NCBI GenBank assembly: GCA_036405135.1
Contig: DASWYF010000037.1
Location: forward strand, 1-64,000
From: Verrucomicrobiia bacterium
GTDB taxonomy: Bacteria > Verrucomicrobiota > Verrucomicrobiia > Limisphaerales > JAEYXS01
Reading direction: 5' to 3'
DNA: 64,000 nucleotides
A program made the translations under genes and the position numbers. The notes beneath the pieces were generated by a model. That model made no database searches. It saw only the letters and a program-made list of their open reading frames with translations, and was not told the origin of the DNA. The number at the start of each line of letters is the position of its first letter. Position 1 is the first letter of the stretch. This document shows positions 1 through 33,364 of this stretch, piece after piece.

Positions 1-1
1 G

Positions 2-115
2 TGCCGCTTCAAACGGCCCGGCCAGTTCTGGACGCCCAAAGGCATGCGCCATCTGGCCGCACTCTCCGAGGCACGCCATAATCACCACTGGGATCAACTC
101 TGGTTCACTACCTAA
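2..115 (+). CDS. C-terminal fragment of a probable transposase (5' end outside window)
   Basis: The frame starting at base 2 is open from the window edge to a TAA at 113-115 and gives 37 residues that begin CRFKRPGQFWTPKGM and end HHWDQLWFTT. The basic start, the RPGQFW motif and the terminal W-D-x-L-W pattern resemble the extreme C-termini of several insertion-sequence transposases. The family cannot be settled from this tail. The gene-free, repeat-rich DNA that follows fits the edge of an insertion-sequence scar. It could also be the end of an intact gene, since its beginning is not visible. Confidence 0.4.
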   Translation, partial: CRFKRPGQFWTPKGMRHLAALSEARHNHHWDQLWFTT

Positions 116-332
116 TCGGGGGCAGTGTCAAGATGCGCCCACCGTGACATTAACCCTTTTTAACGGTAGGGCGAGAGTCCGCCTTGCCCCGACGTTTTGG
201 TCGGGGTCGAGCCCAAACCAATCCCTCCACCATTGAAAGTAGAGTGAAGACACGAATTCCACCCATCCCCACGAATTGAACTCTATTAGCTCCATCGGAC
301 CCATAAGTCCTATTCGTCCCATTTCCCTCTCT

Positions 333-372
333 GAACGTTGGACGTTGAGAGTTGGAAGTTGGACGTTTCCCC
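333..372 (-). repeat. Heptad-periodic array, copy N
   Basis: Read on the plus strand, GTTGGAC, GTTGAGA and GTTGGAA follow one another with an exact spacing of 7 bases. On the minus strand this is five or six units of the form AACNNNN. See the 7-base-period finding. Confidence 0.65.
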
Positions 373-544
373 AATTCCCTTTTCATACCTCATCCTTCAT
401 AATTCATACATTCCCCGAAGCGCGCCTTCCCGCCTGATCCATTCAATGTGACCCTCCGCGATAGCATCCTGTTCTTGCGGCACTTTAGCCACCAGTCCAC
501 ACCTCCTGGATCAAACCCTCGCCAGCCACTTCTCGCCACCCAAT

Positions 545-580
545 CGTCCTTCGTCCTCGTCGTCGTTCTCGTCCTCGATT
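545..580 (-). repeat. GAGGACGA-type tract, copy 1
   Basis: On the minus strand this is a purine-rich quasi-repeat made of CGAGGACGA, GAACGA and CGACGA blocks. Similar tracts lie at 22364-22386, 24342-24360, 45656-45675 and 49059-49092. It is not in a gene. Confidence 0.55.
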
Positions 581-660
581 TTTAGATCATGGACAGACAC
601 CAAACTTGAACAAAATCAGAGTCTTTCCGCTTTCGGTGTCCCCGCCACCGGTGCAACCGG

Positions 661-694
661 CTGAAAACTGAACACTGAAAACTTCCAACTCCGC
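661..694 (+). repeat. Heptad-periodic array, copy M
   Basis: Units such as AACTGAA, CACTGAA, AACTTCC and AACTCCG recur every 7 bases. This matches the AACNNNN consensus of the dispersed family. Confidence 0.6.
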
Positions 695-1029
695 CCCTTG
701 GGCGGCTAAGGAACTATGTCAAAGAGCAATGAAACCATCCGACCCCTGTGAATGTATCTGGCCTATGGCTCCTCCTAAAAGGGAGGCCAGACTCTGGCGC
801 TGTCCCTGACGCGGTTGGTTCCGCAGTGGGTACCATGGTCACACTTGTGACTTAGGGATTCCCCGGTGGGTCATAAAATCCTACGCCCACCGACGTCCTG
901 TTCCCCCTCCAGCTTACGCGCCCTGATCCAACACCCGATACACTCACATATCTGCAATGACTCCATAAGGATTGCCAAAAAGATTCCAATGAACCATTGG
1001 CTTGAGGATGTTGAACCTTTCATGTTCCC

Positions 1030-1063
1030 AACTCGAAACTCAAAACTAGGAACCCGAAACAGG
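1030..1063 (+). repeat. Heptad-periodic array, copy L
   Basis: Units AACTCGA, AACTCAA, AACTAGG and AACCCGA sit at exact 7-base spacing. The array is very close to the right arm of the array at 24306-24342. Confidence 0.65.
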
Positions 1064-1310
1064 CGTGCAGCCTCTCCTTTACCGACAACGAGTTGTCAGC
1101 ACTGAAAAGATTACCAAATTTCCCACAATCGTAAACAACTTCTCCTTAAAATGTTATTCACAATTCTAATGGTTTGAAGCTGAGCAAATTGCAGAAAACC
1201 CAACTTACGTAACTCGCATTTCTCCATTTCCCTTCAACACTAAATTGAAGCCCCCACGACGTTTTAGCGCCCCCAAAACGCCAACCCGTTGCGACAGCAA
1301 CGCCCTCAAT

Positions 1311-1381
1311 CCAAGGTGGGGCAAAGCTGCCGCTTTGCCCTTGCCCCCGAATCCAGCTTTCCCCCTTCTGGATTCGTCCCC
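1311..1381 (+). repeat. REP unit upstream of the RAYT gene
   Basis: The unit carries two hairpins. The first is GGGCAAAGC (1319-1327), loop TGCC, GCTTTGCCC (1332-1340). The second is GAATCCAG (1349-1356) paired with CTGGATTC (1368-1375). The same two-hairpin unit follows the transposase at 2011-2079 with base-pair-preserving differences. Placement on both sides of a REP-type transposase suggests this is its cognate REP family. Confidence 0.75.
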
Positions 1382-1476
1382 TGATCGATAATGCACGCAA
1401 TACACATTAAATATTCAAACACCCCCTTTCATTCCCCTTTCCAAAAACATGAACTTCCTCCTACCCTAAACTCATC

Positions 1477-1940
1477 ATGAGCAAGGATGGAAACGCAGGC
1501 CGTCACTATCCCGCCAAAGGCGTCCACATTTCCCTTCAAGGACCGAACTGGGTTTTCCTAACAGTGAACGTGGAGAACCGTGAACGCTGGCTTGCCCAAC
1601 ACTCCGTGCAACGCGCCTTGCACCAGATCTGGGAACACAAAGCCACCGCCTGGCTCGTGAGCGATTACCTCCTCATGCCCGATCACCTCCATCTCTTCTG
1701 CGCCCCACGCGATCCCGAATTCACCATCGAACAATGGATGGGCTTCTGGAAAGACCGCTTCGCCAAGACCCATCCCGATACCGGCACCTTTCAAACCGGC
1801 GGCTTCCATCATCGCCTTCGCGATGGCGAAAGCTACACCGAGAAATGGCACTACGTTCGCTAAAATCCCATTCGTGCCGGACTGGTGAAAGAACTCGAGG
1901 AGTGCCCTACTTCGGTCGCGTCCACGAAATCCATTGGTAA
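1477..1940 (+). pseudogene. REP-associated tyrosine transposase (RAYT), disrupted by a stop and a frameshift
   Basis: RAYTs are single-domain Y1 nucleases of the IS200/IS605 superfamily that act on REP sequences. The first 128 codons carry the HUH-type pair in MPDHLHLF (H70, H72) and the catalytic tyrosine Y126 in KWHYVR. A TAA at 1861-1863 replaces the residue before the conserved continuation NPIRAGLV, which is still readable in the same frame. About 40 bases later one base is missing, near 1904-1907 (TGCCC where TGGCCC would give W-P). After that shift the family-typical ending PYFGRVHEIHW and a TAA at 1938-1940 appear in another frame. The reading is therefore two lesions in a formerly normal gene of about 154 codons. 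A 128-residue product keeping all catalytic residues could still be made. Confidence 0.85.
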
Positions 1941-1981
1941 GCAAAAGAAGTGAGATAAGCAGAGAAGGGGACATATGCCAC

Positions 1982-2079
1982 GGCGGAGCGGCAGCTCCGC
2001 CCCACCTTATCCAAGGTGGGGCAAAGCTGCCGCTTTGCCCTTGCCCCGAATCCGGCTTCCCCCTGCCGGATTCGTCCCC
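1982..2079. repeat. Inverted REP doublet downstream of the RAYT gene
   Basis: The right half, 2011-2079, repeats the unit at 1311-1381: hairpin GGGCAAAGC/GCTTTGCCC at 2019-2040 and hairpin GAATCCGGC/GCCGGATTC at 2048-2073. The left half is an inverted copy with hairpin GGCGGAGC-ggca-GCTCCGCC at 1982-2001. The two halves meet head to head through CCCCACCTT and AAGGTGGGG. This is the layout of a bacterial interspersed mosaic element. Confidence 0.8.
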
Positions 2080-2159
2080 AACCGCTCTGAAACTTTCGAT
2101 TCTCAATTCGGCCAAGAAGTGCATTGTAGCCAGGCCACCCATCTATAATATTCCAGTCC

Positions 2160-3218
2160 ATGACCCCAAAGCCCATCCACCTGGCCGTTCTGCTGTTGAC
2201 GTTGGCTGCCTCGTTTGTCACCGCTGCGGATGCCCCTCTCTATGTACATTTGCTTGCCCCTGAGCATTTGCTCACCAGCCGCATTCATTTGGGCCAGCCC
2301 ATCATGGTCCGGGGTAAAATTTCCTTGAGCTTGAGCGGCACTATCGAGCAGCGCGGCACCAACCTCATCGCTGACTTGCGAGGCGGCACGGGCTTATATG
2401 GGACATCTTACCAAGGGGAGATGGCTCTGGATAAACCCTATTTTTCCGGTGGGGGCGGGGGTAGTGGCGGTGCTGGCCCGCTATGGTTTGCCGTTTCCAC
2501 CAACGCGGATTGCACCCACATCATTGAAGGTCTGAAAAAGAGCCAGCCAGCGGCCCGTTCTGATCGTCAGGTTTTACTGCTCAACTTTCCCAAGTCCGTG
2601 GATATCGCAGACGCACAAATCGAATACTTCCTCACCGGCCCCTTTGGCGGGGTGGGGAACCGTGTCACCTCCAAGCCTAATCTCCACCAATATGTGATTG
2701 ATACCACGCATGAGAGCAAGCCGGCCCAATCGCTAAAAGCCATCATCTATTGCCCTGGCTACGGCTTCGCCTTGGTCAACGCACCGTCTTTGAAAACTCC
2801 CGCCGCTGGAAACGCGACCATTGATCTCAGTCCACAGCGAACTATTCCTCTCGCTGGTAAGATTGTCGCGCCCGCAGGCAAAAGCCTCGCTGGCTTAAAA
2901 CTCGAAGTCACTTATCACGCCCTCTGGGGCATGGAATATTTCGGCTATATCGATGGGATGGCCCCTGAATTTAAGGTCGCTACGGCAGATATAGCTGCCG
3001 ACGGTTCCTTCACCCTCACACTGCCGGATTTGGCGAACGATGCGACCATTAAAATGTTTCAGCTCACTGAAGAGCGCCTTAAATTGGCCTTGCGTGATCC
3101 CAAGACCGGCAATTTTCCTTATGCCTTGGCCGTGCCTGAAAGTCTTGGCTGGAAAGATGAGTTTAAGATCGCCTCGTCGTATCCCATACCGCTGCACTTG
3201 CAAGCCCGGCCCAAGTAG
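2160..3218 (+). CDS. Secreted protein of unknown function
   Basis: The 352-residue product starts with a classical signal peptide (positive start, hydrophobic LAVLLLTLAAS, likely cleavage after VTAA near residue 23). The mature part is beta-rich in appearance, with a glycine-rich loop around residues 98-108 that contains five glycines in a row. There are no cysteine motifs or catalytic signatures I recognise. Its convergent neighbour (3249-3764) and the large minus-strand gene beyond it are also exported proteins of unknown role. Export to the periplasm or outside is inferred; the function is unknown. Confidence 0.7.
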   Translation: MTPKPIHLAVLLLTLAASFVTAADAPLYVHLLAPEHLLTSRIHLGQPIMVRGKISLSLSGTIEQRGTNLIADLRGGTGLYGTSYQGEMALDKPYFSGGGGGSGGAGPLWFAVSTNADCTHIIEGLKKSQPAARSDRQVLLLNFPKSVDIADAQIEYFLTGPFGGVGNRVTSKPNLHQYVIDTTHESKPAQSLKAIIYCPGYGFALVNAPSLKTPAAGNATIDLSPQRTIPLAGKIVAPAGKSLAGLKLEVTYHALWGMEYFGYIDGMAPEFKVATADIAADGSFTLTLPDLANDATIKMFQLTEERLKLALRDPKTGNFPYALAVPESLGWKDEFKIASSYPIPLHLQARPK

Positions 3219-3248
3219 TATTTTACCATGCTTTCCCCGGTCATTCCC

Positions 3249-3764
3249 TTATTTTATCTCACAGATCACATCTTTGACCATGAGTGGAGCGGTGCCAGCG
3301 GGTTCCAAGGTCACGCTCAGATGGTACGTGCCGGGTTTGATGGCGTAGATCTGGTTCAGGTCAAACTCCCAGTTGTTGGACGCGCGTGAACCAAGGAACC
3401 GGCGGACACGCCGCCAATCATCACCACTACCGCCCAAGACCTTGTTGCCAAAGTCGGTGAAGGGACAGGCGTTACCTTGGGCATCCATCAGCTTGAGCGT
3501 GAGGTCTCGATAGCCATTGATCTCGTACCACGCAATTTCCCGTTCACTTTCATTCGTCAGCACGACCCGCATCATGGCGGGTTGGCCAGCGTTGAGCGGT
3601 TGGGTCAGATAGATGGAGAGTTTCAAACGGTCGGCAGAGGTCATCTGCCCGGCTAACACCGTTTTTTTGCCTATTGATGTCGAGTTAGTAACTGCGTTCG
3701 TTTGCCCCATGGCTGAAGTGGCGATGAACAATAGGACGCAGCAAACATAGTGTCTAAATGGCAT
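3249..3764 (-). CDS. Secreted protein of unknown function
   Basis: A 171-residue protein with an N-terminal signal peptide (MPFRHYVCCVLLFIATSAMGQ, split as charged start and hydrophobic core). The mature part contains LNAGQPAMMRVVLTNES, typical of an immunoglobulin-like beta-sandwich that begins with a statement about relative strength of a load or ligand, but no family can be assigned. A GGGAG-like Shine-Dalgarno site lies about 6 bases before the ATG. It converges on the gene ending at 3218, with 30 bases between the two stops and no clear terminator. Confidence 0.65.
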   Translation of the reverse strand: MPFRHYVCCVLLFIATSAMGQTNAVTNSTSIGKKTVLAGQMTSADRLKLSIYLTQPLNAGQPAMMRVVLTNESEREIAWYEINGYRDLTLKLMDAQGNACPFTDFGNKVLGGSGDDWRRVRRFLGSRASNNWEFDLNQIYAIKPGTYHLSVTLEPAGTAPLMVKDVICEIK

Positions 3765-3920
3765 AGTGATCTCCCGTCGGACCGTTCCTCAATCATAGTT
3801 AACGGGGCAGTCATGAATGTGCTCGTTCAAACCTGAATAAGCAACCCGGCTTCATACACACGTCACACGGCGTCCCCGTCCAAACATCTTTCCTCAACTA
3901 CGCCCGCCTCACGGTTTCGG

Positions 3921-5537
3921 CTAACGAGATTTAATTCTCGGGGCGGGAAAAAATGGAGATTGAAACTGTGCCTCGGATTCATCAAGCAATTCCCACTGTG
4001 CCTCGGCTTCACCAGAAGACGGCTCAGTGCGTGGTTGCTGAAACCGCGTCGAAACTTTCCGTTCGCTGTGAGGCATTATCCCATTTTCACCGTAAAACTC
4101 CGCCACCGCTTCGGCCGAGTTGTCCGACACCGTCTTGACCTTGATCTTCCCATAACCAGTTTGCGGCAGGAGATAAAACCCGGTTGGAGGCAGGTAATAA
4201 AACTCCATGCCTTCCAAGACTCCAGCCTGCCTGCCCTTATCCAATATCACCTCAACCGATTTGAGCCTATCTATTGGCCGGTCCTCCGGTATTTTCCCTG
4301 CTTTGGTAATGGTCGCCACGATTGGCTCCTTCAAGAGATACGGGTGATACTTCACTGGGATTTCGGGCCAGCCTGCCAAGGCGATCTTTTCATCGCCCTC
4401 ACGTAATAAAAAACTTCCGAACCTCGTTTTTCTAGGCTCACTCCCGGCATTGACCGCCACGCAGAAATCTATCATTTCATTGGGCGCCACCAGATACTTC
4501 CGTCTACCCCATGCCACCGGGATATAAGCCAGCTCCATTCCCTGGTCTTTCCTGCTCAGCCAAAGCGCTCTCAGTAATCGGGTGGTTTTGATCTCCAGTT
4601 GCTCAGGGTTCTCATATGTTGCACGGGTGCCATCTCTCCGCCACCGCATCAAATTGTCATTTGGCAGTAGCGTCACCGTGATTGGGTCATTGACCGCCGC
4701 GTCCGGTAGGGCCCCACCATGATCATTTCGGAAATAAACTCCTGACCATGGATGCACAACACGTTTGTTGGGCTGGGACCAATCCACGGGATCGGAAATT
4801 TCCATCTCTTTTCCATCCGCCACCGCCCTGATCACCTTCTTGCCTTTCACATCGAACCACACACTTGCCGGAATTTTTCTGAGCGGATTCCATAGGTCCA
4901 CCCGCAAAATCCCTTTAGTCATCTCCGCGTTCTTAAGTTCAACTCCTGCTGACATCCCACCTGGAGCAGATGAATCCGAAAAATACCCAAAGGGCAGATC
5001 ATCACGGAAAAAGATCACCCTTCTTTCGTATGGCCCTATCTTTTCCAAGATGGCCTTTTCCACATCAAAGACACTTTCAAAATAGGCGATGTCTGCCGCC
5101 TCACCTTTAGATTCCGCCAATTCCAAAAGGCTCATGGAACAGTATAAAGAATGGAAAATGGGCGAATACGCTGTCACCCCATCCGGGCTGGATACGTAAA
5201 ATCCTTGGCTTATGAAGACGGTTTTCTTGGAGTGAGGATCGCGAAACATCACGATGTGAAGTTCGGCAGGCGCACTTGTGTAAGGGGTGCTCAACTCCAA
5301 CTTGGCCGTAAATGCCTTGTTCAGCTTATAGGTCGCCCATTTTGCTTTGACCTCCTGAAATGCTTTACCATCCGTCTTCGGTGAGTCCGCCACGATCAAA
5401 CGAACAGTCGTTTCCTCCCATGTCGGCCCTTTCGTACAAGTCCACATGGGCGTGTTGGTATTCGTCTGCCCCCATACCGCCGTGGTCAGCGAAACCATGA
5501 GCAAAATACCGCCCAGAAAATTTCTCAGATGAATCAT
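3921..5537 (-). CDS. Secreted protein of unknown function (538 aa)
   Basis: The ATG at 5537 is chosen because GAGGTG sits 6 bases upstream and the product then begins with a clean signal peptide (MIHLRNFLGGILLMVSLTTAVWG). A start 17 codons further upstream is possible but would bury the signal. The mature protein is acidic and has no repeats or membrane segments. Near residues 430-455 there is a VEVILDKGRQAGVLEGMEF segment resembling the cores of beta-barrel domains that bind flagellar or translation factors, but this is too weak to name. The function is unknown. Confidence 0.65.
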   Translation of the reverse strand: MIHLRNFLGGILLMVSLTTAVWGQTNTNTPMWTCTKGPTWEETTVRLIVADSPKTDGKAFQEVKAKWATYKLNKAFTAKLELSTPYTSAPAELHIVMFRDPHSKKTVFISQGFYVSSPDGVTAYSPIFHSLYCSMSLLELAESKGEAADIAYFESVFDVEKAILEKIGPYERRVIFFRDDLPFGYFSDSSAPGGMSAGVELKNAEMTKGILRVDLWNPLRKIPASVWFDVKGKKVIRAVADGKEMEISDPVDWSQPNKRVVHPWSGVYFRNDHGGALPDAAVNDPITVTLLPNDNLMRWRRDGTRATYENPEQLEIKTTRLLRALWLSRKDQGMELAYIPVAWGRRKYLVAPNEMIDFCVAVNAGSEPRKTRFGSFLLREGDEKIALAGWPEIPVKYHPYLLKEPIVATITKAGKIPEDRPIDRLKSVEVILDKGRQAGVLEGMEFYYLPPTGFYLLPQTGYGKIKVKTVSDNSAEAVAEFYGENGIMPHSERKVSTRFQQPRTEPSSGEAEAQWELLDESEAQFQSPFFPAPRIKSR

Positions 5538-33156: not shown

Positions 33157-33256
33157 GTTTATTTTGTTGTTCCAGAGGTTGTTTTGAACAGGAAGGTAGT
33201 GAATGTAATTTGGGAGCCGGTTTTATTGTGAGTGCGGCGGTGAAGGCCGAGGTTAG

Positions 33257-33276
33257 GGCAAAGCGGCAGCTTTGCC
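33257..33276 (-). repeat. Single REP hairpin distant from the RAYT gene
   Basis: GGCAAAGC-ggca-GCTTTGCC is the first hairpin of the REP units at 1319 and 2019, in the opposite orientation, with the flanking AGGGTGA/AAGGTGG also similar. It lies in the gap between the TPR gene and the sulfatase gene, 31 kb from the transposase. Confidence 0.65.
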
Positions 33277-33364
33277 TCACCCTGAGCAGGGAACTGGCGT
33301 TGACGCCAACGCTAAGGTTCAGTAGCTCATGACAGGTGCCGGAAGAGGCGGCTAGTTGAACACG

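Follow-up and report, generated by a model that had tools for sequence, protein, structure and literature searches.

The locus at 1311-2079 of the window (the whole stretch of 64,000 nucleotides of Verrucomicrobiia DNA that was analysed) is very probably a degenerate REPtron: to judge from its sequence, a RAYT (TnpA-REP) gene accompanied by GT[AG]G-tagged hairpins that its product presumably once recognized. By homology to other TnpA-REP proteins, whose mechanism we take from PMC6006769 and PMC8266576, the HUH/Tyr enzyme would read a tetranucleotide and a hairpin in single-stranded DNA, cut beside the hairpin and transfer it; short REPs would thereby be copied around the genome, and the RAYT gene would stay put. 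In PMC6006769 the canonical foot of a REP is GT[AG]G. The features are as follows.

1311..1381, forward strand: upstream two-hairpin unit, with GTGG tag at 1316-1319, stem 1 at 1319-1327/1332-1340 and stem 2 at 1348-1356/1368-1376 (z -5.5)
1477..1940, forward strand: RAYT (Y1/HUH) gene, read as a pseudogene, with HUH-type HLH motif codons at 1684-1692, conserved Tyr codon at 1852-1854, premature TAA at 1861-1863, one-base deletion near 1903 and ancestral stop at 1938-1940
1982..2006, reverse strand: inverted REP, stem 1 alone, GGA/TCC variant, facing the downstream unit
1977-2044: tail-to-tail REP dimer made of the inverted REP and the start of the downstream unit
2011..2079, forward strand: downstream two-hairpin unit, with GTGG tag at 2016-2019, stem 1 at 2019-2027/2032-2040 and stem 2 at 2047-2056/2065-2074 (z -6.0)
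33209..33292, reverse strand: a further stem 1 (GGTGAGGCAAAGC...) within the core of a decayed MITE-like repeat

The open reading frame at 1477-1863 matches the NCBIfam model REP_Tyr_transpos (E 6.6e-10; 39 bits, which is below the curated cut-off of 80), a model matched by nine of nine family members. A profile built from nine homologues (A1) found one solved structure, PDB 4er8 TnpArep (E 6.5e-7), the Escherichia coli TnpA-REP, with detectable homology across the catalytic core. Residues P68 to F74, which include the HUH motif, and Tyr126 do not vary among the nine. No Pfam match was obtained among the aligned homologues, and the window protein was not matched to Pfam Y1_Tnp. The gene carries two lesions that the earlier note missed: the TAA falls at codon 129, where aligned relatives have Glu (Gln in L068), and one base has been lost near 1903, with C-terminal reading resuming in the other frame (...PYFGRVHEIHW). 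In its own genome (assembly 97.8% complete) the RAYT protein has four matches, and those listed are the window itself and two distant ones (34% and 27%), with no second close RAYT among them; uninterrupted homologues are present in other genomes. With a stop, a frameshift and no close intact copy among the matches listed for the assembled sequence, the gene therefore reads as a pseudogene, and the REPs that remain in this genome are probably orphans. The locus thus has the Y1/HUH and Tyr motifs and the tagged flanking hairpins of a REPtron, and dispersal of the same REP in the genome holds for stem 1 alone, mostly within MITE-like copies; the gene itself is not intact, hence the assignment to a degenerate rather than a working REPtron. 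Other Y1_Tnp genes of the same genome were considered as partners of the REPs and set aside, the six strongest not lying at REP copies and the five examined (L009-L013) being uninterrupted genes for Y1 transposases of a different type, with other palindromes on both sides.

The two-hairpin units stand on either side of the gene, as the earlier note had it, and are direct repeats whose first 39 nucleotides are identical and whose remainder is 90-91% identical. Stem 1 is GGGCAAAGC-TGCC-GCTTTGCCC in both, TGCC being its 4-nt loop, and three matches to the stem-1 pattern occur in the window where 0.06 would be expected by chance. The inverted copy at 1982-2006 is GGTGGGGCGGAGCTGCCGCTCCGCC, which departs from the other two copies at two stem pairs, both partners of each being altered, in keeping with the paired changes described for it. 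Stem 2 reads CGAATCCAG/CTGGATTCG upstream and CGAATCCGGC/GCCGGATTCG downstream; here the claim that both partners had changed together holds for one compensated pair, the other difference being a pair added downstream. With two copies and one compensated pair, covariation in stem 2 is weak, and a paired change of this kind might be expected by chance in a few cases per hundred (a figure estimated rather than calculated). Folding with DNA parameters gave two hairpins per unit, at the z-scores against shuffles listed above, and the doublet at 1977-2044, in which the inverted REP faces the next unit as had been proposed, folds into one long hairpin (z -6.9 against shuffles). Stem 2 has no further occurrence in this genome. 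Confinement to this locus, which had been named as an observation that would count against the reading, is therefore true of the two-hairpin unit and not of stem 1, of which the genome holds 34 copies. A search of Rfam with window positions 1-4000 gave no match.

The two units, being direct repeats whose hairpins lie on one strand on either side of the gene, also resemble the ends of IS200/IS605 elements, and the whole locus could be an insertion sequence of that type, bounded by the two-hairpin units and moved by its own transposase. We regard this as very unlikely: only one close copy was found in the genome among the matches listed, where an IS200/IS605 element would be multi-copy, the protein fits the REP-associated model but gives no match to Pfam Y1_Tnp, and copies of the hairpin are scattered without the gene.

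The degenerate-REPtron reading is supported by homologous RAYTs, whose close members lie in Verrucomicrobiota assemblies (titled Verrucomicrobiales, Limisphaerales and Verrucomicrobia). A strict script scanned sequence no more than 450 bases from each homologue match for a GT[AG]G tag ahead of a near-perfect stem of at least eight pairs, and took control windows 1000 bases further out. Among the 24 homologues that reached 50% identity and had full flanks, a unit was present upstream of 11, downstream of 11, on both sides of eight and on either side of 14, compared with 0 of 43 controls; below 50% identity the figures were 5/33 against 2/66 controls. At 58% identity or more, with any flank length, 12 of 15 had a unit on at least one side and nine of 15 on both (12/14 and 9/14 without L197). 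Hairpins were found on both sides of L179, L180, L182, L185, L186, L187, L189, L190 and L192, on one side of L183, L184 and L188, and on neither side of L181, L191 and L197 (59%); under a looser pattern, L181, L183 and L184 yielded additional hairpins on the downstream side. The L179 and L182 homologues are intact, and that of L179 has the flanking hairpin GGTAGGGC. Layout and distance are also kept, the window units lying at -162 upstream and +143/+152 downstream and the paired units at -163/-156 and +146/+152 in L189 and at -164/-158 and +146/+153 in L190. The claim of a REP-RAYT unit is thus borne out by like tagged hairpins in the same places at the closest homologues, and by co-occurrence across genomes (below). 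One homologous RAYT gene, L192, has a tagged hairpin within it (GGTAGGGCGGCGTTGCCGCGCCGCCC, reverse strand, about 2272-2304, in a 33-column insertion), which fits REP mobility.

Pairing in stem 1 is strongly supported as having been kept between genomes. Three stem positions are unconstrained in the pattern GGTGGGGCNNNGCTGCCGCNNNGCC. In 18 genomes it yielded 24 genome-variant combinations, in which 64 of 72 free positions were Watson-Crick paired; the shuffled mean was 27.5, and none of 20000 shuffles attained 64. Over 17 distinct variants the count was 43/51. Variants flanking RAYTs behaved in the same way (21 variants, 116/126 Watson-Crick, shuffled mean 67.5), and a reversed control pattern was absent from all genomes searched. 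The inference from paired changes to a conserved fold is accordingly upheld firmly for stem 1 and weakly for stem 2. Within the MITE-like core described below, covariation is uninformative because stem 1 hardly varies there.

Across the order, GGTRGGGCNNNGCNNCNGCNNNGCC was found in 54 of 146 genomes. Taking a RAYT match as strong at E of at most 1e-20, a cut chosen post hoc from the table, five or more REP copies were present in 18 of 30 genomes with a RAYT and in 15 of 116 others (Fisher p 4e-7); by family the figures were 15/25 against 9/37 (p 0.0075), and in permutations within families one of 5000 attained the observed value, all of these being computed from hand-transcribed counts and without a tree. 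By the test that the earlier note had proposed, copy number thus tracks RAYT presence among related genomes, with many departures both ways: fifteen genomes have five or more REPs without a strong RAYT match, and ten have such a match without the pattern. These exceptions are owed partly to incomplete genomes and to the narrowness of the pattern, which overlooked the hairpin GGTGGGGCAAACC... at the RAYT of G007.

Within the genome of the window, most of the 34 matches to stem 1 fall within a MITE-like element present in about 29 copies, which measures 197-208 bp, ends in terminal inverted repeats and is flanked by target duplications of 8-10 bp. Its 197-nt consensus has 35 matches, some 29 of which extend beyond stem 1, with about six covering little more than stem 1. 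Six copies (L149-L154) match over the full length and have inverted termini of 19 nt, and target duplications measure 9, 8, 9 and 10 bases in L149, L150, L151 and L152, L153 lying at a contig end. As an ascertainment check, a query without stem 1 found 25 places, all of them copies already known; in two (C32 and C9) the loop holds a longer hairpin. In other genomes the MITE query matched G095 and G064 around stem 1 only, gave two short stretches in G002 and no match in G001, so stem 1 is a conserved part of a repeat that seems restricted to this species or its close relatives. The element was presumably moved in trans by an unrelated transposase acting on ends CTGAGCATTACCCACAAGT; no full-length parent was seen, since the inverted-end pattern matched known MITE copies only. 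As few copies of stem 1 lie outside the repeat, RAYT-driven spread is not evident in this species.

Several further arrangements of these repeats were observed. One MITE copy (L158 and L162; G000:C31:85952-86502) is interrupted within its stem-1 hairpin; the insert, about 350 bases long, has inverted ends of its own (CAGTGGTGTCCAGC / GCTGGACACTACTG) and about 10 duplicated bases. In two core copies, L160 and L175, the stem-1 loop is replaced by a long additional hairpin, GCGGCTTG(C/T)CCCGATTC.... Upstream of the two-hairpin unit, at about 707-952 of the window, lies another repeat, with copies L055 and L060 elsewhere in G000, the genome of the window, and L101 and L112 in G002 of the same genus; these four contain stem 1 in similar surroundings, as AAA/TTT in the former pair and ATC/GAT in the latter, and the window copy is without this stretch.

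Mean pairwise identity within the MITE-like repeat is 96.7% in stem 1, 80% in the second hairpin and 65% in the remainder, which suggests either constraint or homogenization of stem 1. Such preservation might also be expected if the palindromes had been retained for a control function in RNA or DNA (as terminators or mRNA ends) with no involvement of the RAYT, an explanation that we find still less likely, given that their position is tied to one RAYT clade, that copy number is associated with RAYT, and that window 1-4000 matched no Rfam family. Least likely is that the hairpins belong to the MITE-like family and stand next to the RAYT incidentally, as might be thought from the number of MITE-like matches in this genome (some 29 of 35, among them recent copies whose target duplications agree): the RAYT-flanking copies have only stem 1 in common with the repeat, and like hairpins are borne by the RAYTs of G095 and G064, where the MITE query matches the stem-1 part only, and by RAYTs in named records, a conservation at RAYTs of other genomes that largely refutes it.

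Returning to the degenerate REPtron, we tentatively suggest that the REP hairpin may have outlasted its transposase by incorporation into an unrelated MITE, with REPs now being spread by a transposase of another family. If so, the position of stem 1 as the most constrained part of the repeat would suggest that the hairpin serves the element or the host.

The earlier note had seen a new verrucomicrobial REP class, which overstates the case. GTAG REPs, and RAYT-REP units under the name REPtrons, have been described (PMC3733652; Di Nocera 2013), as have the GTAG-20 REPs of Opitutus terrae, mostly GTGG-tagged, to which ours are likened by description, and, at two RAYTs, REPs that adjoin unrelated stem-loops (PMC3733652). 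Shared with those REPs and REPtrons are the GT[AG]G tag, a stem in the usual 6-9 bp range, tail-to-tail dimers, complementary stem changes and a RAYT flanked by REPs, in O. terrae within the same phylum; the locus differs in its 4-nt TGCC loop, modest copy number, broken RAYT and second hairpin adjoining the REP. On each side of the RAYTs at Pseudomonas putida ppf 607 and P. fluorescens pfs 4255 a REP is likewise combined with a second, unrelated stem-loop, but as terminal inverted repeats present in hundreds of copies (PMC3733652), whereas here there are two copies, in direct orientation. The REPs of E. coli are imperfect, bulged palindromes; those of the window are perfect, like the second group described in PMC8266576. 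Since REPtrons, GTAG/GTGG tags and composites of REP and stem-loop were already described, the locus belongs to a known kind, of which it is a degenerate example from a Verrucomicrobiota clade, and the possible capture of a REP by a MITE is its modestly unusual aspect.

The general view of what REPs are is unchanged by these findings. They provide the Verrucomicrobiota with a RAYT clade whose flanking hairpins covary between genomes and are usable as natural enzyme-substrate pairs, and a case of a REP surviving the death of its RAYT, mostly within another mobile element.
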